Source: Aeromonas lacus (GTDB lineage Bacteria > Pseudomonadota > Gammaproteobacteria > Enterobacterales > Aeromonadaceae). Taken from it: a DNA stretch of 64,000 nt. This document shows, one piece after another, positions 21,852 through 32,756 of the stretch (positions are counted from its first letter, which is position 1; each line of letters begins with the position of its first letter). The translations under genes and the position numbers were made by a program. Location of the stretch: the NCBI RefSeq assembly GCF_000764665.1, contig NZ_JRGM01000130.1, positions 62,001 through 126,000 of the forward strand, given 5' to 3'. Below the pieces are notes generated by a model. That model searched no databases, had not been told where the DNA came from, and was given only the letters and a program-made list of their open reading frames with translations.

Positions 21852-22910
21852 TTATCTACCGAGGATGGCATGATGCATCTCCTGCAAAGGAAGTACATGG
21901 CGGGCTGCCGAGAGTTTGATCGCCTCCTTGGGCATGCCAAAGACAACGCAAGAGGCCTCATCTTGGGCATAGGTGTTGGCACCAGCTTCCAGCATTTCGC
22001 GTAATCCCCGGGCACCATCATCCCCCATGCCGGTCATGATGATGCCGGTGGCGTTCTTGCCGGCATATTTGGCCACGGAGCGAAACAACACATCTACCGA
22101 GGGGCGATGACGGTTGATAAGAGGGCCATCGACCACTTCGACGTGGTAATAAGCGCCGCTGCGCTTGAGCATCATGTGTTTGCCGCCCGGCGCGATCAGC
22201 GCCAGTCCCGGGATCACCCTGTCATTGTTTTTGGCTTCTCTTACCTCTATCTGACACACCCCGTTGAGACGCTCGGCAAACATGGCGGTAAATTTTTCCG
22301 GCATGTGCTGCACGATCACGATGCCGGGACTGACCCGGGGGAGGGCGGTCAGGACAGCTTCCAGAGCCTGGGTGCCCCCCGTGGAGGTGCCGATGGCGAT
22401 GAGCCGTTCGGTGGTTTGCGCCATGGCGTGCTGGTTGGGGGACAACATGACATCGGCATTGAGTTTGGGATTGGTCGTGCGGGGCGCCGGTTTGCCGAGC
22501 CGCTTGATGTTGGCTTGAGCAGCGGCTCGTACTGCCATAGCCAGATCATGGGCTGACTCCTGCAAGAAGCTCTTTATCCCCATGGTGGGTTTGGTGATGA
22601 TATCGACCGCTCCGGCCGCCATTGCCTGCAGGGTGGTTTCAGCTCCTTTTTCGGTCAGAGAGGAGCAGATAACTACTGGGGTTGGGTGCTCTGCCATGAT
22701 CTTGGTGAGAAAGGTGATGCCATCCATTCTTGGCATCTCCACATCGAGGATAATGACATCGGGCCACTCTTTCTTCAGCTTGTCCTGGGCAAAAATCGGG
22801 TCTGAGGCTGTTGCGATAACCTTGATATCTGGCTCCTGCTCCAACACAGCTTGCAAGACCTGTCTGACCACGGCGGAATCATCCACCAGCATGACCCGGA
22901 TCTGTTTCAT
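21852..22910 (-). CDS. cheB: Chemoreceptor glutamate methylesterase/deamidase CheB
   Basis: Response-regulated esterase that removes methyl groups from chemoreceptors during adaptation. 352 residues: receiver domain with Asp10/Asp11 and phospho-acceptor Asp56 ([10 protein letters not shown]), a linker to about 165, then the esterase domain with the catalytic triad Ser176 (GTSTGGTQ), His202 (VQHMPEKF) and Asp297 ([10 protein letters not shown]). It is the last gene of the ten-gene minus-strand chemotaxis operon and overlaps cheD by 4 bp. Confidence 0.96.
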
Positions 22911-23398
22911 TCTCGCGACTCCCGTTGATGTGGCAGACGATGATGGCGCAACCAGACACTACCGCTATTGAGCTCGAAAATCAGACTCCGGTGGCCATAG
23001 TGGCCAAGATGATGAGCCTTGATATCAAGTCCCAGGTGTTTGGTCAGCTGCCAGGCTGCCTGAATATTTCTGGTGGCGACATTGTTGTCGCTCTGGATGT
23101 ACTCTGGTGCGTCAAACATGTTGCCCCCTCCAAACAACTTCACCTCGTACTCATGAATGGGGGCGGGATACAGGGCAATCGCCTTCAGCAGCAGGGCGAT
23201 GGCTTCATCGGCATAGCGCCCATCCAGCTCTGTGGCGGGTGTTCCCCGGGTTGGCAACATGTAATGACACATACCGCCCTGTTTCTGTTCCGGATGCCAC
23301 AAGGTGATGGCCACACAGGAGCCAAGGAAGGTTTTTATGTGCACATCTTCCTTGCCAAAGAAGAGCTCACCCGGTTGCAGGATCACCTCCCGTACCAT
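22907..23398 (-). CDS. cheD: Chemoreceptor glutamine deamidase CheD
   Basis: Deamidates receptor glutamines and often interacts with CheC or receptors in alternative adaptation systems. 163 residues; the catalytic Cys28 ([11 protein letters not shown]) and His45 (GGMCHYMLP) match the positions known from Thermotoga CheD (27 and 44), and FGGGNMF follows near 90. E. coli lacks CheD. It is 5 bp after cheR and overlaps cheB by 4 bp. No cheC is present in the window. Confidence 0.95.
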
Positions 23399-23403
23399 GC
23401 TGG

Positions 23404-24207
23404 TTATCTCTTCTGGTAGATGGAGGGAGAGACAAGCTGCAAACCATGCGGCAAGCCGTGCAGGCTTTCTGCATGGCTGACCAGCAGATAGCCGCCATGT
23501 TTCAGTTTGGGCACCAACCGTTGCAACACTTGTGCTTTGGTCTCCTTGTTGAAGTAGATCATGACATTACGGATGAAGATGACGTCAAACATGCCAATGT
23601 CGGGTAGCTCCTGATTGAGGTTGATCTGCATGAAACGGACTTTTTCCCGCAACTTGCGATCAATGATGAAAATACCCTCCTGCAGGCCGATGCCCTTGAG
23701 GCAGTATTTCATCAAAAATGAGAGCGGTATGTTATGGGCACGCTCTATTGGATAGCGCCCACTCATCGCCTGCTCAAGCACCCGTGATGAGATATCCGAG
23801 GCCAGGATCTCCCAGCCGAGCGTGTTTCGCTTCTCAGCCAGGGTCATGGCAAGGCTGTATGGCTCTTCACCAGAGGAGCTGGCAGCACTCCAGATCCGCA
23901 ATGAGCGATCTGCCGGTATGTGGGTGAGAACCTGCTGGGTCAGAAAATCAAAATGCTTGGGTTCTCTGAAGAAGTAGGTTTCATTGGTCGTGAGCAGATC
24001 GAGTGCCAGTTGCAGTTCGCCACTCCTGTCGGCCATGATGAACTGAAAATAGTCGTCATAACTTTCCAGCCCGTAGTGACATACCCGCTTTGCCAGCCGA
24101 CTCGCGACCAGCGCTTTTTTGGCAGGGGACATATCAATCCCCGCCGTCTGATGTAGCCAGCGTTGGAAACGGGAGAATTCGTCATCATGCAGCTGGATTT
24201 GGTACAA
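23404..24207 (-). CDS. cheR: Chemoreceptor glutamate methyltransferase CheR
   Basis: Transfers methyl groups from SAM to receptor glutamates. 267 residues: helical N-terminal domain (about 8-75), then the SAM-dependent domain with the motif RIWSAASSSGEEPYSLAM near 104-121 and the family signature FDVIFIRNVMIYF near 207-219. A beta-subdomain between these is the part that recognises receptor C-terminal pentapeptides in E. coli CheR; whether it is retained is not certain by eye. Next gene is cheD, 5 bp away. Confidence 0.95.
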   Translation of the reverse strand: MYQIQLHDDEFSRFQRWLHQTAGIDMSPAKKALVASRLAKRVCHYGLESYDDYFQFIMADRSGELQLALDLLTTNETYFFREPKHFDFLTQQVLTHIPADRSLRIWSAASSSGEEPYSLAMTLAEKRNTLGWEILASDISSRVLEQAMSGRYPIERAHNIPLSFLMKYCLKGIGLQEGIFIIDRKLREKVRFMQINLNQELPDIGMFDVIFIRNVMIYFNKETKAQVLQRLVPKLKHGGYLLVSHAESLHGLPHGLQLVSPSIYQKR

Positions 24208-24264: not shown

Positions 24265-26019
24265 TTAAAAGCGGACGAAATCAGAATCATTGAGTGGACG
24301 CGATTGACCGGCTAATCGATCCTGGTTTTTGTTATTCCCCTCGGTAACGAAATGCCCTTTGGTATGGTGATGCGCAGACTTGCCGTTGGCTTTGTTCTCT
24401 TTGTGTGGTTCCTCCAGAGTGAAGAACTCCATAGCGAGTTGTAGTTGTTCTGCCTGAGTGCTCATCTCCTCCGCTGTTGCCGCCAGCTCTTCGCTACAGG
24501 ATGCATTTTGCTGGGTAACCTGGCTGAGCTGGTTCATGGCGAGGTTGATCTGGCTGACGCCGGTTGATTGCTCAGTCGATGCAGCACTGATCTCCTGAAC
24601 AAGATCCGATGTTTTGTTGATAGAGGGCACCATTTGATCCAGAAGATGCCCAGCTTTCTCTGCCATATCTACACTGCTGGACGCGAGCTCACCAATCTCT
24701 TGTGCCGCGATCTGGCTGCGCTCGGCCAGCTTGCGAACTTCAGCTGCAACTACGGCAAAGCCTTTGCCATGATCGCCTGCCCGGGCGGCCTCGATTGCCG
24801 CATTGAGTGCCAGCAAGTTGGTTTGATAGGCGATGTCGTCGATGATGCCAATCCGTTTGGCTATCTGCTTCATTGCATCAACGGTAAGTTTGACAGCCTC
24901 GCCACCCTCTATCGCCTCTTTCGCGGCCTTGCTGGCCATGCCATCGGTGACTTGGGCGTTGTCGGTGTTCTGGTTGATGCTGGCACTCATCTGCTCTATT
25001 GATGCGCTGGTCTCCTCCATGCTGGCTGCTTGTTCACTACTCGACTGGCTGATGGATTGAGCTGTTGCACTAACCTGTTCGGCTGCACTGGATAAGTTAT
25101 CCGAGGCACTTCTCACCTCTGTCACAATATTGGTCAGGGAGGCAATGGTTTGGTTGAGAGCATCCTTGGTGGTACCGAATATGCCGGGGTAATCGGCTTC
25201 AATGTGCTGGGTCAGGTCTCCTTTAGCCAACGACTGAACTATCCGGATGACATCGCTTAGCGTGCTGTCGATTACTTCGGCAATCTGATTGATCCCTTCC
25301 CCCATAGTTTGGAAAAATCCGCTCTTTCCTGCCAGATCCATGCGGTGGTGCAGTTCGCCGTTGATGACTGCTTGCACGAGATCAGACATCTCTCTCTCGA
25401 TGGTCACCTCCTTGGTTCTGTCTGCCCATTCGACAACGGCACCAAGCCGTTCGCCATTGTCATTGAAGACCGGATTGGCAATCAGGGCGAAGGTGCGTCC
25501 ACCGAGCTTAATTTGGGTACGATAGGTGCTGCTCAATTTGGCCAGCATGGCGCGCTGGTGGCCGGGATGCTTGTGAAAGCTGTCGATGTTTGCCCCCATC
25601 AGCTGATTGGCATTGAAGCTGTATAGCTCTTTTTTGATATCAGATTCAGCTGTATTGAGCATTTCGGTCACGGCTTCGTTCATGTAGATAATGTCGAAAT
25701 TGGTATCGGCGATCATCACATTGGTTGTGGCGCAATCGAGTGCTTTGCGAACCAGCCGATTTTCATGGAGGAGCCTCTGGTTGTTATGAAGCTCTTCTCT
25801 GTAGCTCTCCAGCTTGTCATTCATCAGAGTGACAAGTTCATTGATGCTGTGGCCGGTCTCTAGTAATGCGCCATTAAAACCGGAGAGATCGAGGGGGCTG
25901 GGCGGTGTATCTTCGATTAATGCTTGCTGGATCTGTTTGATAGATGTCAGTAGCCGAGCCTGCTGGTGGGCTTCTGCTGTAGCGTTGCCGAAGAGTTTGC
26001 CAAAGAGTGATTGAGTCAT
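24265..26019 (-). CDS. Soluble PAS-domain methyl-accepting chemotaxis protein
   Basis: 584 residues with no membrane segment, so a cytoplasmic receptor. A helical N-terminal region (1-~90) is followed by a PAS domain (about 92-205; [18 protein letters not shown] ... [21 protein letters not shown]), two tandem HAMP-like segments (about 205-310, including [18 protein letters not shown]) and the signalling hairpin with [17 protein letters not shown] near residue 400. It ends in NDSDFVRF. The layout PAS-HAMP-HAMP-signalling is like Pseudomonas Aer2/McpB, which lies in an equivalent operon, but no haem ligand has been identified here. It lies between cheW and cheR in the operon. Confidence 0.9.
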
Positions 26020-26060: not shown

Positions 26061-26630
26061 TCAGGAAAGTTGCAGATTACTCTGCGGTAAACGAGCCTGC
26101 GGCTGGGTTATTTCATTGAGCTGGGCCATCTCCTCCAGTGACAGGACTTTTTCGGTGTCGATCAGAATGACGAACTTGCCATTCACTTTGCCCATTCCGC
26201 TGATGAAGTCAGCCCTGATTTTTGCGCCAAAACTGGGGGGCGGTTCGATGTCGGATGGGGGGATGCCTAGTACTTCAGATACTGAATCGACTACAACACC
26301 GATGTCATGACCAGCCGGCTCATCGCCTTGCTGCGGCATGCCTTCAATGATGACTATGCAGCTTCGGCGCGTAATGTTTGAGGGTGCGCAGCCGAAACGG
26401 GCACTCAGATCCACGACAGATACCACGGATCCCCTCAGATTGATCACCCCGCGGATAAAGCTCGGCATCATGGGAATGGGAGTAATGTTGCCGTACTCTA
26501 TGATCTCTTTGACGCCCAAAATATTGATGGCAAACATCTCGTTGTTAATAAGAAATGTCAGGTACTGTGCGTCGCCTGATTGTTCGTTCAATGTTGCCGG
26601 CGGCAGCGTGATATTGGTTGTACTGTTCAT
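26061..26630 (-). CDS. cheW: Chemotaxis coupling protein CheW
   Basis: Scaffold linking receptors to CheA. 189 residues, slightly longer than E. coli CheW (167) because of tails at both ends. The two SH3-like lobes carry LTFLINNEMFAINILGVKEI at about 24-43, PSFIRGVINLRGSVVSVVDL near 58-77, and DFISGMGKVNGKFVILIDTEKVL near 145-167. It sits between the two receptor genes of the operon. Confidence 0.95.
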   Translation of the reverse strand: MNSTTNITLPPATLNEQSGDAQYLTFLINNEMFAINILGVKEIIEYGNITPIPMMPSFIRGVINLRGSVVSVVDLSARFGCAPSNITRRSCIVIIEGMPQQGDEPAGHDIGVVVDSVSEVLGIPPSDIEPPPSFGAKIRADFISGMGKVNGKFVILIDTEKVLSLEEMAQLNEITQPQARLPQSNLQLS

Positions 26631-26642
26631 GCGGTCCTCCGG

Positions 26643-28577
26643 TTAAAAGTGAATAAAATCAGCTTCATTCAGGGATGAAGATGGGGGCTGATGTGGCGGA
26701 ATAGCCCGTTGTGGTGGGGCAATAAAGCTTCCTCTGGGAGGAGATGCTTTATGGCTTTTATGGCTCTGCTCATACTGACTGACACTGGTTTGCGGATTTT
26801 TTTCCAGCGAGAAAAAGGACATGGTCTGCTGTAGTTCACTTGCTTGTGAGCTCATCTCTTCCGCTGTGGCTGCCAACTCTTCGCTGCTGGCCGCATTTTG
26901 CTGTGTTACCTGATTAAGTTGACTCATTGCCAGACTGATTTGGTTGGCTGCGCTGGCTTGTTCAGAGGAAGCCGCATTAATTTCCTGAACCAGATCGGAT
27001 GTTTTGCGGATCGAGGGGACAATTTTTTCCAGCAAACTGCCAGCACATTCAGCTTTGCTGACGCTGTCGGAAGATAGCTCACCAATCTCCTGCGCGGCGA
27101 CCTGGCTGCGTTCAGCCAGTTTTCGAACTTCAGCCGCGACCACAGCAAAACCTTTACCATGTTCTCCGGCGCGGGCTGCTTCGATGGCGGCGTTCAGTGC
27201 CAGAAGGTTAGTTTGGTAGGCAATATCATCGATAATGCTGACTTTCTTGGCTATTTGCTGCATGGCTGCCACGGTTTGCTGAACAGAGCGTCCACCTTCG
27301 GTTGCCTCTTTTACCGAGTTGCTGGCCATGCTGTCGGTGATTTTGGCATTCTCAGTGTTCTGATTGATGCTGGCACTCATTTGCTCAATGGATGCACTTG
27401 TCTCCTCGACGCTGGCTGCTTGTTCGCTGGTTGCCTGGCTTAATGCCTGTGCAGTGTTGCTCACCTGGTTGGATGCATTGGTGAGGTTATCTGCGGCGTT
27501 GCGCACCTCTTCAATAATGTGTGTCAGTGCCACTATGGTTTGGTTCAAGCCATCTTTTGTCTGACCAAAAATCCCGGGGTAGGGCTCGTCAATACGTTGT
27601 GTCAGGTCTCCCTTGGAGAGAGAGGTTGCGATGCGCATCACATCCTCAAGGCTGGTATCCGTGACGTGAGATAACCGGTTCAATAGTTCTGATACACGCT
27701 TGATATAACCTTGGCGGTTTTCCAGTGCAATTTTATGGCTGAAGTCCCCCTCTTCCACCGCTGCCGTTACCAGCGTTTCAATATCTGTAATCAGGGCACC
27801 GAGAGTCTTGACCATATTATCCATGGCTAGCAGCAACTGACCTGCTTCGTCATTTGACTCAATCTTTATCGATACATCGAGGTTGCCTGCCGCGAGACTA
27901 TTGGCAACATTCAAGGCTTGTTCAATGGGGGTGATAATACTTTTTATCAGCATGGTGCCGAACCAAGCTGCGATAACCATGCCTGCAATGATGACGGATG
28001 CCATTGTAATCAGCATGTTGTGGTACCAGGATTGAGCGGCAGCGTATTCAGATTTGGCTACGCTCAACTGCAAGGTAACCAGTTCAGTTATTTTATTGCC
28101 TATCGGATCGATGGATTCGTAGAGCGCACCATCGAAATTGTTGAGCATGCCGGGGATCATCCCATGTTGCGTAGCCAGAAATTTCTCCAGTTTGCCAATG
28201 TCCCTATTGGCTGCGCTAAACAGGTTGATAGCTTCGGAGGATAAACGCTGCTCCTCGCTGGTGAGCGTGGTGGACTGGTAATTCTGCCAGACCTGTTTGA
28301 TCTCTTGTTGAGCTTGCTCTATCTGGGTAAGCGCCTCTTCTGCCGTGATGAGGCCTGCATTGGCTTTATTGATGTTGTCGATGATGGATACGGCGTAGCG
28401 ATCAGAGATGGTTTTCAGTTGCTTGAGTGGAACCACCCGGTCGTTGTATACCCGTTGCAACCCTGTATTGCTGCTCTGCATATTATATAAGCCAAGGCTA
28501 CCAACTCCGAGCAGCAGTGTGCAAAGCAGGCAAAGCAGAACAATGAGGCGTAATTTTATGGTGGAGTTTTTAAACAT
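26643..28577 (-). CDS. Transmembrane methyl-accepting chemotaxis protein
   Basis: 644 residues. Membrane helices at about 9-28 and 190-212 frame a periplasmic four-helix-bundle sensor (about 30-188). HAMP follows (about 213-265), then a second HAMP-like unit containing [20 protein letters not shown], and the signalling hairpin with [17 protein letters not shown]. It ends in NEADFIHF. The cytoplasmic part is close to that of the soluble PAS receptor two genes downstream, pointing to duplication with exchange of the sensory head. It lies between cheA and cheW. Confidence 0.92.
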
Positions 28578-28587
28578 ATGTGACTCC

Positions 28588-30798
28588 TCAGTTGATGCTG
28601 ATTTGGGGTTGGATTGATGGGGGATTTAATCGGCTAAATTGCCCTGATTCTTGGTTTATTGCGTGCTGAATAAGCGATGGGATATCGAGGATAAGAGCAA
28701 TTTCGCCTCCTCCCAAAATGGTTGAACCACTTATTCCCTGCAGCCGCTGGAATAATTTACCCAGAGGTTTGATGACAGTTTGAAACTCTCCCAGCAACTC
28801 ATCGACTACCAGTCCAGATTTTTTCCCTGCATAACTCACCACTACAATATTCTCACGACGCCCCTTGATGCCTTGGGTATCAAAGTAGTGCTGCAGACGA
28901 ATGAAGGGCAGCACTTCACCTCGCAAGTTGATGTAATTTCGTCCTTGTGTATCGGCCAGAGCGTTCGGGGTTAATTCTACGCACTCGATCACCATATCCA
29001 GCGGGATCACATAATGGGTATCGCAGACCCTGACCAGAAAACCGTCGATGATGGCGAGTGTCAGCGGAAGGCGGATTTGCACTCTGGTGCCCTTGCCTGG
29101 GATGCTGTCGAGCTCAACTGTGCCACGCAGGGCAGTAATATTGCGTTTGACCACATCCATACCGACGCCGCGGCCGGAAAGATTGGTAATCGCTTCGGCA
29201 GTGGAAAAGCCGGGCTCGAAGATGAGTTGGTAAATCTCCTGGTCTGTCAGCGTACTGGTGGTACTGATCAAACCGCGTTCAATGGCTTTTTGTTGGATCC
29301 TTGCCTTGTTGAGGCCGGCACCATCATCCCTGATCTCGATAACGATACTGTTAGAGTCGTGGTAGGCGTTGAGGTTCAACGTTCCTTTGGACGGTTTGCC
29401 CGCAAGGAGGCGTTGCTCGGCTGATTCGATACCATGATCCATCGCATTTCTGACCAGATGCATGAGCGGGTCGCCGATCTTCTCCACAACGGATTTGTCC
29501 AGCTCGGTTTCTGCACCTGATATTACCAAGGTGATTTCTTTGTTTAGCTCCTGACTCACATCTCGTACAACTCGTTGAAAGCGGTTGAAGGTATCCCCAA
29601 TGGGGACCATTCTCAGGCGCAATGCATTATCGCGGATCTCTTCCACCAGCATGGCGATCACCGATGTTGCTTCCTGTAACTGTGCTTCCCTGATGCGCTG
29701 CGCGAGCATGTTTGCCCCTGAACTGGCGACTACCAACTCCCCAACCAGATTGATCAGGTCATCCAGCTTGTCGGCATGTACCCTGACGTAGCGCCCTTCC
29801 TTGTTTTTGCTCTCTTTGGTCTGGTTTTGTTTTTTCAGTGCAGCATCGACAACGGCTTCATTGACAGCGCCTTGCGCGATGAGGATTTCACCAAGCTTGG
29901 GCGCGATTTCATTGGATGTTGCTTGCTGGGTTTGTAGTCCAGCGGCCAGCTCTTCTGCGGTCAGGGCTCCGGTGTTGACCAGCAGTTGCCCCAGCATGGC
30001 GTTATCTTCCGGCAGCGATTCAATGAGATTGATGAACTCGGTGATCTTGCTGTGGGGGGGGAGAATGGCAATCTGGCAGTCATCTCTGACAAATTCAAAG
30101 ACGTCGCTGATGGCAGCCTTATCGGCCTGAGAGTCGAAATCAATTTCGTAACCGAGATGGCAATTTTCCGGATCAAATTGATCCCAATCCGGTATGGCCT
30201 GGTGAATGGTCTCCAGTGCACTGATAGTACCGAGCGTGCAGAGATAGCGCAGAAAGGCCGCAGGATCCATGCCGTTGCGCAGCACGTCTTGGCCAAAGCG
30301 CAGGGAGATATGCCATAGCGATGCAGAGCTGGTGACAGCTCCCTCTTTTTCAATTTTGGCTTCGGGAGTGGGTATAGTATCTGGCAACGTGGTTTGCGGT
30401 ACGCATTGGTAACGGGTGAGAGCAAGCCGCAAGCGCTGATCCTGCATTTCGTCGCTATCGCTCAATGCAGAGCCCTGTTCGGCCACGACACTGATGAGTA
30501 GCTGGATGTGATCACAGCTCTCCAGCAGATCCTTTATCAAGGGAGAGGTGACAACAAATTGCTGGTTTCTTATCTGGTCGAGCAGATCCTCTACGATGTG
30601 GGTAAACCCGACAATCGGCTGCAGCCCAAACAGCCCTGCAGAGCCTTTGATGGTGTGAGCCGCACGAAAGATGGCACCTATCAGTTCACCATTATCTGGC
30701 TCACCTTCCAGTGAGAGTAGAGCGGATTCCATCTCTTCGAGTAGATCACGCGCCTCGGCAATATAGGTTTGTAAAGCCTGATCAAGATCGATACTCAC
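28588..30798 (-). CDS. cheA: Chemotaxis histidine kinase CheA with internal MshEN-like tandem repeat
   Basis: Kinase that phosphorylates CheY and CheB. 736 residues. Hpt/P1 domain with phospho-acceptor His48 ([10 protein letters not shown]); a P2-like region at about 160-250 (ending IAILPP); then two copies of the LGxxLxxxGx6(L/V)xxxLxxQ pattern at 269-291 and 302-324; dimerisation (P3) at about 338-400 ([12 protein letters not shown]); ATPase (P4) with [12 protein letters not shown] near 447, DDGAGL near 491, GFSTAE near 530 and [10 protein letters not shown] near 542; CheW-like P5 at about 585-715. The repeats lie between P2 and P3, a segment E. coli CheA uses only as a linker. The start is ATG 22 bp after the STAS gene. 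Confidence 0.95.
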
Positions 30799-30820: not shown

Positions 30821-31147
30821 TCAGGGCCGCTCGTCATGAGTGATGAGAGTTGGATCGCCAAAGAATCCGGATAATTGGCAAAGTTCCAGAAGTTCCAGCA
30901 CGACGTTGCTATGCCAGACCAGCGAGAGGGGGTAACCTTGTTGCTGTGCACTTTTTTTGGCTGCGATCAGCAGTTGGAGTCCCGCACTATCTATCTCGGC
31001 AATATTTGCCAGATTGAGTTCCAGTTCCCGTCCTTGATAGAGCAAGGGGGTGAGTGCCTCTTTGATTTCGCCCACTGTGTATATGGTGAGCTCGTCAGGT
31101 AGTGTTACCACTGTCTTGTTATCCAGCATCTCGCTTTGCAATGACAT
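30821..31147 (-). CDS. STAS-domain protein (anti-sigma-factor-antagonist fold) in che operon
   Basis: 108 residues forming a single STAS domain. The strand-turn-helix IAEIDSAGLQLLIAAKKSA (about 48-66) carries the serine that is phosphorylated in SpoIIAA-like proteins (DSAG). It lies between cheY and cheA in the operon, and small STAS proteins occur at this place in several non-E. coli chemotaxis operons. A role as a phosphorylation-dependent switch, or in coupling the array to other partners, is inference; no cognate anti-sigma kinase or phosphatase gene is in the operon. Confidence 0.85.
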   Translation of the reverse strand: MSLQSEMLDNKTVVTLPDELTIYTVGEIKEALTPLLYQGRELELNLANIAEIDSAGLQLLIAAKKSAQQQGYPLSLVWHSNVVLELLELCQLSGFFGDPTLITHDERP

Positions 31148-31160
31148 ATGAGCTCCGGGA

Positions 31161-31529
31161 TCATGGCATGATCAGTTTGGATACCGCGGAGAGCATCTGT
31201 TCCGGCTGGAACGGTTTGACTACCCATGCTTTGGCGCCTGCAGCCTGGCCTTCCTGCTTTTTGCTATCCTGCGACTCTGTCGTCAGCATGATGACGGGAG
31301 TGAATTTGTAGCTAGCCAGCTTTTTCGCCTCTTTAACAAAGGTGATACCATCCATGTTGGGCATGTTGACGTCGCTGATGATCAGGTTGATCTTCTTGCC
31401 GTCGAGTTTTTTGAGCGCGTCCTTGCCATCACAGGCTTCCATTACTTCATAACCTGCGCCTTTGAGCGTCATGCCTACGACTTGGCGAATGGTTGCCGAG
31501 TCATCCACGATCAGGATCGTTTTGCCCAT
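31161..31529 (-). CDS. cheY: Chemotaxis response regulator CheY
   Basis: Single-domain receiver, 122 residues. Asp9/Asp10 (ILIVDDSATIR), phospho-acceptor Asp53 (SDVNMPNMDG), the switch threonine in MLTTES near 82 and Lys104 in VVKPFQ are all present. Membership in an operon distinct from the main flagellar cluster leaves open whether it acts on the flagellar motor. It is the second gene, 9 bp after the first MCP. Confidence 0.94.
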   Translation of the reverse strand: MGKTILIVDDSATIRQVVGMTLKGAGYEVMEACDGKDALKKLDGKKINLIISDVNMPNMDGITFVKEAKKLASYKFTPVIMLTTESQDSKKQEGQAAGAKAWVVKPFQPEQMLSAVSKLIMP

Positions 31530-31538
31530 ATATCTCTC

Positions 31539-32756
31539 CTAGAAAAATGTGATGTCAGCGCTGCTTGTTTGCGCTTGGACTGTACGGGTAGTGCGACCAT
31601 GGTGAATATTGCGTTGCTCATCGGTTGCATATGAGAGCTCCATATCAGCCAACCACCGGTTGGCATCGATCCGGATTGGTCCCGATAGCTGGTTGTTTTG
31701 CTCCGATTGCAGGTGGTTCGAGAGGTTCTCCATATTTTTCCGGATATGGCTCAGGATCTGGCTGACCCTGTCCTGAAATTGCAGTGAGACAATAACGTTG
31801 GAGATCTCGCGATGGATTTCTGTGCTTTCGTTTTGCAGTAAAGACGCTGACTCAGCCAGACTGTCGGTGGCATGACGAAAGCGGCTCAGTACTTGCTCGA
31901 TGGTTTGCTCGGAATTGAGGGCCGAGGCGTGATCCCGTGCCGCGGCATTTTCGGCAATCTGAAATGCACGGCTGATCCCTGTGTTGATGGTGTCGACTTT
32001 ATCCGTCATTTTTTGGGCTGTTTCGCTGGAGAGGCGTGACAGGTTACGCACTTCATCCGCTACCACGGCAAAACCACGTCCGGCTTCGCCAGCCCGTGCA
32101 GCTTCAATGGCTGCGTTGAGTGCCAGCAGGTTGGTCTGGGAGGCAATCTTGGCAACATCCATCGCCATGGCATTGAGTTCGATGGTGTAGGTTGTCAGGC
32201 TTTTTATCTCGGCCAGCATGGCATCCCGATTGGCTTGCGCCGAGTGCAAGATGGCCACGACTTCATTGAGCTGTTGTTGGCTTTCGCTCAGAACTCCTGC
32301 CATGCCGCGAGAGTTGGCATCTCCCAGTTCCCCCGCAGCAAGATGAGAGGCATTGACGGCTTCTTCCAGCTTGGTGGCCAATCCGCTGAAGCGTTGAGTC
32401 AGATCGATCATTGCCTCCTCGGTCTGTTGGCGAGAGTTTTCAATCTGTTTTGACCAGATGGGGAGAACTTTTTCACATACCTGTTCGAGACCAGCGATGG
32501 AGTGGGCATATACGCTGTTATCTATGGCCGCAGAATCAGCTGCGCGAGTTTGCTGGTGGTGCAACTGCTGATGGAAATGGCGAGATGTCCAGAGAGAGGC
32601 CCCGCAGGAGAAGAGCACGGTAACAAGCAGGTAAATGAGCGAAAGGGCGCCGGCAAGCTGTAACAGCAGGCAGCTCAACACGCCAAGACCGATACCGCAG
32701 AACCAGCAAACCGGTTCCCAAAGCGGTGTGTTTACGCCACTTTTTGGTTGTGTCAT
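31539..32756 (-). CDS. Methyl-accepting chemotaxis protein without periplasmic domain
   Basis: 405 residues. Two hydrophobic helices close together (about 17-36 and 39-57) anchor the protein with essentially no periplasmic loop, so input must come from the membrane or cytoplasm. Then a coiled region and a short signalling hairpin with [23 protein letters not shown] (split here: [17 protein letters not shown] and [16 protein letters not shown]). It ends SADITFF. It is the first gene of the operon. Short signalling length suggests that it belongs to a different receptor length class from the other two receptors. Confidence 0.88.

Follow-up and report, generated by a model that had tools for sequence, protein, structure and literature searches.

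Does a chemotaxis kinase carry its own receptor for a second messenger? The histidine kinase CheA is described in the abstract of a 2023 survey as lacking a sensor (input) domain (Berry et al., PMC10782961; here and below, published work is cited from the parts of each text that were accessible). The question is raised by a CheA gene in a 64,000-nucleotide stretch of the Aeromonas lacus genome (contig NZ_JRGM01000130.1, positions 62,001 to 126,000; hereafter the window), whose product contains two copies of a motif known from MshEN, a domain that binds cyclic dimeric guanosine monophosphate (c-di-GMP). When this segment is analyzed together with sequence profiles, related genomes and published structures, we consider it likely that an N-terminal MshEN subdomain (MshEN_N) sits in the linker between P2 and P3, binds c-di-GMP and tunes the output of the array. 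The analysis shows homology, conserved contact residues, purifying selection and presence typical of a clade.

A tandem MshEN-type motif in the P2-P3 linker of CheA

The gene (28588..30798, minus strand) begins with GTG and encodes 736 residues, in which the open reading frame (ORF) and its Pfam domains give the order Hpt, P2-like, MshEN_N, dimerization, HATPase and CheW. The module occupies residues 268-324 (29827-29997, minus strand), just before the dimerization domain, and is composed of motif I (residues 268-291, 29926..29997), a spacer (residues 292-300, 29899..29925) and motif II (residues 301-324, 29827..29898). The initial annotation had described the tandem as residues 269-291 and 302-324 (29994..29827), ten residues apart and located between a P2-like region and the dimerization domain, and this description holds: nine residues separate the full 24-residue units and ten the 23-residue copies, H-kinase_dim begins at residue 337, 12 residues after motif II, and the Pfam scan names no domain in residues 99-336. 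That annotation had also cautioned that the spacer exceeds the five residues of the published motif. It does so, and as a sign of lost binding this carries less weight than it seemed, the spacer ranging from 5 to 20 residues across 90 CheAs; by its position it is a variable loop between helices, and we do not treat its length as defining for MshEN_N.

The NCBIfam profile NF053729, which describes the MshE-related c-di-GMP motif over 53 positions, matches CheA residues 269-324 with E 6.3e-9 and 35.5 bits in the protein scan, and in a six-frame search of the genome it scores 40.8 bits at this gene, over its curated cut-off of 38 bits. Four places were returned by the genome search at E ≤ 1, namely the MshE-type ATPase (78.5 bits), the window CheA and two at 12.5 bits, and among the three places in the genome that match H-kinase_dim, NF053729 matches the window CheA alone. 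It also matches, at E ≤ 1, all 44 rows of an alignment (A2) comprising the window CheA and 43 relatives, selected because they have the segment. The segment profile, built from 57 sequences over residues 250-336, was searched against the PDB sequences and found Thermus PilF (E 2.6e-17 for the chain, over three stretches; best single stretch 1.1e-9, in GSPII-C), PilB (E 5.7e-9 and 1.3e-8) and MshE (5HTL, E 1.5e-5, with the best stretch over the first motif only), as well as entries of the c-di-GMP-binding domain of PilF from E 1.4e-4. The profile search that had been proposed as a check, with MshEN (GspE_N), came out divided: Pfam PF05157 gave no match to the window CheA (E ≤ 10) or to the 44 alignment rows (E ≤ 1), so that this test would have misled, whereas NF053729 matched. 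The miss is no refutation, because in the MshE-type ATPase of this genome the match of NF053729 lies at C186:52875-53033 and that of PF05157 in the 267 bases immediately downstream, and PF05157 hence models the stretch after the binding motif.

Structure prediction supports the same reading, with qualifications. AlphaFold2 places helices in the 87-residue segment at residues 251-261, 269-276, 281-293, 302-309 and 314-334, giving two predicted hairpins, each with LG at its start and LxxxLxxQ in its second helix, at the places expected for MshEN. The mean predicted local distance difference test score (pLDDT) is 76.3 and the predicted template modeling score (pTM) 0.57, and the five models average 76, 75, 74, 56 and 51. 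By sequence, residues 268-324 are therefore a module of the c-di-GMP-binding MshEN_N type, as the initial annotation had proposed, on the combined evidence of NF053729, the PDB matches to PilF, PilB and MshE, the predicted helices and the conserved contact positions described below.

Conservation, selection and distribution of the module

The contacts made by each MshEN motif are stacking of the leading Arg on guanine, a clamp of Leu 2, 17 and 21 on that base, a bond from the Gly 3 backbone to its Hoogsteen edge, and bonds from Gln 24 to ribose and to phosphate (PMC5013675). In the window CheA both motifs have the Gly of position 3 and the Gln of position 24 (G270, Q291, G303 and Q324), and the corresponding triads are L269, L284 and L288 in motif I and L302, V317 and L321 in motif II; with the leading residues M268 and K301, these are the contacts assigned by homology. 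Conservation was measured in 62 sequences (35 clusters at 80% identity) chosen solely for an ungapped motif I, with no letter required. G270, Q291, G303 and Q324 are each present in 62/62, and the invariant positions in full are G270, L273, T280, E283, L288, Q291, G303, A320 and Q324. Mean entropy over the 35 clusters is 0.32 bits at ligand positions 2, 3, 17, 21 and 24, 1.04 at core positions and 1.59 at all others (permutation test, p 0.0001 for the comparison with all others, 0.007 for that with the core), so that on average the ligand positions are better conserved than the core. A second set, 94 CheAs in 55 clusters, was chosen with a pattern asking for Gly 3, the hydrophobics and, apart from rows called by hand, Gln 24, and its figures, which give a similar picture, are thus partly circular (0.45, 1.21 and 1.76 bits for ligand, core and other positions; p 0.0002 and 0.006). 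Position 17 of motif II is Val instead of Leu in 46 of these 55 clusters.

Selection within Aeromonas was estimated from ten sequences, the window and nine named loci, as the ratio of nonsynonymous to synonymous change (dN/dS) in pooled pairwise counts without error bars and with far-diverged synonymous sites (proportion of synonymous differences, pS, 0.53-0.72). Motif I gave 0.172, motif II 0.031 and the two together 0.087, to be compared with 0.778 in the spacer, 0.347 in the first linker, and 0.108, 0.141, 0.063, 0.111 and 0.077 in P1, the P2-like region, P3, P4 and P5, respectively. Both motifs are thus under strong purifying selection, about as strict as that on the catalytic parts, and the spacer is nearly neutral.

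The leading residues call for separate treatment, since M268 and K301, as the initial annotation had correctly identified them, had been taken there as a hint that binding might be lost. K301 fits the published set Arg/Lys/Leu; M268 lies outside both that set and the set Arg, and is a large hydrophobic residue like Leu. In MshE, changes of Arg9 or Gln32 cost at most about fivefold in affinity and changes of hydrophobic residues more than tenfold, and a perfect motif is possibly not required for binding (PMC5013675). GSPII-B of PilF has Lys and Leu at its leading positions and binds c-di-GMP with 6 nM affinity; K167R is 25-fold and L196R fourfold weaker, K167L reaches 2 nM, and the authors regard a more hydrophobic leading residue as a predictor of very high affinity (PMC11731258). 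These data concern Lys, Leu and Arg, Met not being among the substitutions found in the accessible text, and together with the low dN/dS they turn the argument from Met and Lys to lost binding the other way, at least for Lys and Leu. Within the ten Aeromonas sequences the leading residue of motif I is Met, with Leu in one species. Over the 55 clusters it is Arg in 34, Leu in 8, Met in 6, Lys in 5 and another residue in 2, and in motif II the distribution is Pro 29, Arg 8, Leu 6, Lys 3 and other 9. Lys likewise leads motif II in the MshE-type ATPase of this genome.

The module follows a particular group of CheAs. The segment profile has a match at E ≤ 1e-11 in 17 of 37 Aeromonas genomes, and these 17 are also the ones that have the CheA at ≥70% identity; the other 20 do not, one of them (G493) having a CheA at 52% identity with a degenerate linker. 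A search of 295 genomes of the order with the full CheA, in which no more than three candidates were scored in any one genome, gave 40 matching places at E ≤ 1e-120, spread over 34 genomes. The segment is found in 23 of these 40, being present in 23 of the 24 best-scoring places and in 0 of the 16 others (12 linkers were examined among the latter, all without it). In the class, 13 of 185 genomes have 15 segment-profile matches above 67 bits, in ORFs of 739-784 codons, with the next match at 44.7 bits; eight of the 15 were inspected and all eight are CheA. At the level of the phylum, 12 of 299 genomes match at 1e-11, in 14 places, of which L170-L172 are by reading in PilB-like ATPases and L173 is in a CheA. 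The latter (L173:889-3192:+) is a more distant CheA with an apparent second CheW-like domain at its C-terminus and an MshEN module in the corresponding linker, where NF053729 matches residues 209-262, before the kinase core, with E 4.6e-9 and 35.9 bits (cut-off 38). This may reflect an older fusion, or more than one origin of it. A plasmid search at E ≤ 1e-100 gave 19 records with CheA matches, one of them an Aeromonas plasmid at 79%.

Closer relatives show that the module can be lost. Eighty named relatives, the best 80 of at least 580 matches, include 61 with the segment, of which 56 (A1) and 43 (A2) were aligned with the window CheA, and 19 without it, all Pseudomonas, which were left out of the alignments. 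In 18 of these 19 loci the flanking cluster runs on to CheB, the remaining one (L065) lying on a contig of 5 kb that stops just past the next receptor gene; it is therefore the module, and not the system, that was lost. Of 131 aligned CheAs, 94 keep both motifs and 37 do not, a ratio biased upward by the inclusion of L090-L121, which were fetched by their match to the segment profile; the counts over the order and over Aeromonas genomes are less biased. Partial states occur, as in L144 (His for the first Gln), in L155 and the second Aeromonas CheA (faint traces), and in some Pseudomonas linkers, where a GELL remnant of motif II persists.

From the P3-P5 columns alone, a quick tree was built for 91 CheAs (28 of 88 inner branches starred; several long rows, with L094 of length 10). 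It places the window CheA in a clade of Aeromonas, Pseudomonas, betaproteobacteria and methylotrophs in which presence of the motifs is the rule, and it needs eight changes of motif presence. By a tree method that cannot separate gain from loss, the module is read as ancestral to the clade, with several losses. One clade member, L164:8027-10126:+, has a recognizable motif I without motif II and is a possible intermediate of loss. The second CheA of the genome (G000:C126:37963-40086; L156:8916-11258:-) is 44% identical to the first and belongs to another cluster, and its linker holds a faint trace without the module; rows from other Aeromonas form one motif-less clade with it in the tree.

A proposed c-di-GMP input to the kinase and competing explanations

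We regard it as probable, from the sequence features above, that the module binds c-di-GMP. The genome encodes 41 GGDEF domains, and the ligand is therefore very probably made in the cell. The isolated MshEN_N subdomain of MshE binds with a dissociation constant (KD) of 0.35 µM without the C-terminal subdomain, and MshEN with 0.5 µM (PMC5013675), and GSPII-C of PilF binds with an MshEN-like affinity of 460 nM in one construct (PMC11731258). In the proposed mechanism, the insert in the P2-P3 linker is a four-helix receptor module for c-di-GMP and would hold the ligand in the cleft between its two motifs, where the Leu triads would clamp the guanines, the two Gly backbones would bond the Hoogsteen edges and the two Gln would hold ribose and phosphate. 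Binding would then close or stiffen the segment, which has P1-P2 on one side and the P3-P4-P5 core on the other, and would re-orient it. On ligand binding by PilF, helix 1 unwinds in its first turn and a neighboring subdomain is turned (PMC11731258). The CheA module is joined to P2 by the stretch ahead of helix 1 and to P3 by the stretch that follows helix 4, and a change there should alter the delivery of P1 to P4. The altered segment might thus change how easily P1 reaches the P4 ATPase domain, and array output would be set by receptor input and by the cellular c-di-GMP level. Control of kinase activity by c-di-GMP is the more speculative part of this proposal, and we lean toward it with less assurance than toward binding. 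With such a module, CheA itself, besides the receptors, probably senses c-di-GMP. The wider claim, that a whole clade of array kinases has its own intracellular sensor, in which c-di-GMP in CheA gates the output and joins external stimuli to the motile or sessile state, with the module ancestral, lost several times and also present in L173, seems to us evenly poised between true and false.

Several observations weigh against the proposal. The protein-scan score of NF053729 lies 2.5 bits under the curated cut-off, PF05157 is silent, and confidence in the structural model is moderate, given the two models averaging 56 and 51. The published motif has Gly at position 10, which motif II shows in just 24 of 55 clusters, and Pro, the most frequent leading residue of that motif, is a variant without a measured counterpart in the literature found. 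A near-consensus module can, on the precedent of GSPII-A, fail to bind: this PilF domain does not do so even with a restored consensus, owing to a helix cap and inter-subdomain contacts, and a repaired fragment of it loses binding when motif II is led by Ser (PMC12002112). The CheA segment, read by eye, differs here, with no recognizable C-terminal subdomain and, in residues 264-270, no S/T/D-x-x-E/Q/D capping box. The ligand positions are equaled in conservation by L273, T280, E283, A320 and K323, for which no contact with the ligand is named, and because of this the conservation supports binding without proving it. The module is dispensable in several CheAs of the clade, having been lost with the cluster kept, and in the open-licence literature, with subscription papers outside the scope, no test of c-di-GMP binding by a CheA was found.

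As a rival explanation, the MshEN fold would have been retained as a protein-protein docking element or structural spacer that binds no nucleotide. Non-binding MshEN relatives are known in XpsE (PMC5013675) and GSPII-A (PMC12002112), linkers, such as the one in which the module lies, commonly contain docking sites, Pro often leads motif II, and the five positions without a named contact are invariant or nearly so. In XpsE, however, loss of binding goes with changes at the Gly, Leu and Gln positions (PMC5013675), and here those are the positions best conserved as a set, with the significance against the core given above; moreover, decay mostly takes the module apart as a whole, as the split of 94 CheAs with both motifs and 37 without them indicates, though partial states exist. 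We consider this explanation unlikely, and prefer c-di-GMP binding.

Somewhat less likely still is that the module binds with nanomolar affinity through its hydrophobic and Lys leading residues and is always saturated, c-di-GMP being a structural cofactor rather than a signal. The affinities of PilF with leading Lys and Leu and of its K167L variant point in that direction, as do M268 and K301 in the window CheA and the number of GGDEF domains encoded. Against it, removal of the C-terminal subdomain lowers the affinity of PilF ninefold (PMC11731258), and reading of the CheA segment by eye recognized no such subdomain; MshEN itself binds at the half-micromolar level quoted above, and Arg in motif I of most clusters argues that saturation is not class-wide. 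We therefore retain c-di-GMP sensing as the preferred explanation. A chance likeness of a helical, Leu-rich linker to the MshEN motif, of a kind with the weak spurious matches that helical proteins give to many profiles (several appeared in the Pfam scan), is ruled out for practical purposes by the E-values of NF053729 and of the PilF match, the conservation of the contacts and the dN/dS at domain level.

Known systems and the surrounding chemosensory cluster

MapZ couples chemotaxis to c-di-GMP through a methyltransferase partner. The phosphodiesterase Pch is recruited directly or indirectly by CheA (PMC10212136), and Cbp1 is a PilZ chemoreceptor that links chemotaxis to c-di-GMP (PMC6454048). 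These systems act via a methyltransferase partner, a phosphodiesterase partner and a receptor, respectively, whereas the CheA module would be a receptor domain inside the kinase. With MshEN_N of Vibrio cholerae MshE (PMC5013675; 5HTL) it shares two 24-residue motifs, LG at positions 2-3, Leu or Val at 17 and 21, Gln at 24 and helices predicted at matching places; it differs in having a spacer of 9 rather than 5 residues, leading Met and Lys rather than Arg, no recognized MshEN_C, and a location in the linker of a histidine kinase, where MshEN_N of MshE is N-terminal in a pilus or secretion ATPase. PilF provides the best PDB match of the segment profile (GSPII-C), and its GSPII-B likewise lacks the leading Arg; its GSPII domains stand in an ATPase context, where a C-terminal subdomain follows and helps GSPII-B to bind (PMC11731258).

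The window CheA shares with the canonical five-domain enzyme the Hpt, dimerization, HATPase and CheW domains and a P2-like region (PMC10782961). The auxiliary domains in that survey are P2, receiver and CheC/CheX, and its accessible main text contains no occurrence of c-di-GMP or MshEN; HHpred was run there on unassigned regions of more than 100 residues only, and a 57-residue module could be missed because of this limit. An association of MshEN with CheA is stated in one sentence by Wang et al. in 2016 (PMC5013675), where the accessible text does not give which CheAs are meant, the position or the conservation, and holds no test on CheA. What looks new, judged from sequence, is a module typical of a CheA clade, selectively kept, repeatedly lost and apparently competent to bind. 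If the proposal is true, the motile or sessile state of the cell would set the gain of the array directly, contrary to the description of CheA as a kinase without an input domain. The module would also offer a way into a group of chemosensory arrays that is poorly understood, for which the clade members without it are natural controls.

The remaining domains of the kinase all lie on the minus strand. P1, the Hpt phosphotransfer domain, spans residues 8-98 (30505..30777; Pfam PF01627, E 4.4e-17), and by analogy its His48, invariant in 44/44 rows of A2, would be the phosphorylatable His. The P2-like region (residues 160-250, 30049..30321) was assigned from its position and a conserved block in A2, with weak matches to Pfam P2 in just 7 of 44 rows (best E 0.022). 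P3, the H-kinase_dim dimerization domain, spans residues 337-393 (29620..29790; PF02895, E 2e-9), the P4 ATPase domain HATPase_c residues 443-580 (29059..29472; PF02518) and the CheW-like P5 residues 586-712 (28663..29043; PF01584). Hpt, H-kinase_dim, HATPase_c and CheW are found by Pfam in the window CheA and in 44/44 rows of A2.

The window CheA serves an additional, STAS- and CheD-containing chemosensory system, encoded on the minus strand. Its first gene (31539..32756; Pfam MCPsignal) encodes a short chemoreceptor-like protein with a CheZ-like QFQDxxxQ, followed by a CheY-like single receiver domain (31161..31529; Response_reg) and, directly upstream of CheA, a STAS or anti-sigma-factor-antagonist-like protein (30821..31147; STAS_2, E 3.5e-15; TIGR00377 below cut-off). 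After CheA come a transmembrane chemoreceptor (26643..28577; 4HB_MCP_1, HAMP, MCPsignal), CheW (26061..26630; PF01584, E 2.9e-38), an Aer2-like PAS/HAMP chemoreceptor (24265..26019; HAMP_2 and MCPsignal, with PAS below cut-off and NF041847 far below its cut-off), CheR (23404..24207; PF01739, E 6.4e-53), CheD (22907..23398; PF03975) and CheB (21852..22910; PF01339, NCBIfam NF001965). The named loci repeat the order receptor-CheY-STAS-CheA-receptor-CheW-(receptor)-CheR-CheD-CheB, the exceptions being rearrangements and cut contigs, and homologues were found in the fetched stretches of the 80 loci for STAS in 77, CheY in 76, CheW in 66, CheB in 65, CheD in 62 and CheR in 61. The presence of STAS in 77 of 80 hints at an output through a partner switch or stress pathway rather than the flagellum. 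A crude GG[DE]EF pattern in ORFs of more than 150 codons marks 19 of the 80 loci, some likely spuriously, and gives no consistent link to GGDEF genes.

This cluster is also present in a Pseudomonas syringae relative (L059). For P. syringae pv. tomato, classes F6, F8, alternative cellular function (ACF) and type IV pilus (Tfp) are reported, and not F7, in the accessible text (PMC11253619); the gene order of F7 stage 1, with STAS, CheD and two receptors, is also similar (PMC7184735). By these analogies the class of the system may be F8 or the neighboring F7. A pilus-gene neighborhood has been reported for the P. syringae cluster (PMC5088630), and was not recognizable by eye in the ORF starts of L059.

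The QFQD...Q motif in the C-terminal part of the 31539-32756 protein is present in 20/20 members of its alignment (A3) and in 76/79 orthologues. We take it to resemble the CheZ phosphatase motif; Pfam CheZ matches weakly in 9 of the 20 members (best E 0.0024), with only E 1 for the window protein, which may be a receptor-phosphatase fusion for the CheY of the cluster. The three receptor-like proteins of the cluster, with their C-terminal ends at 31539, 26643 and 24265 (minus strand), end in DITFF, DFIHF and DFVRF, respectively, which resemble C-terminal pentapeptide tethers for CheR, CheB or CheD.

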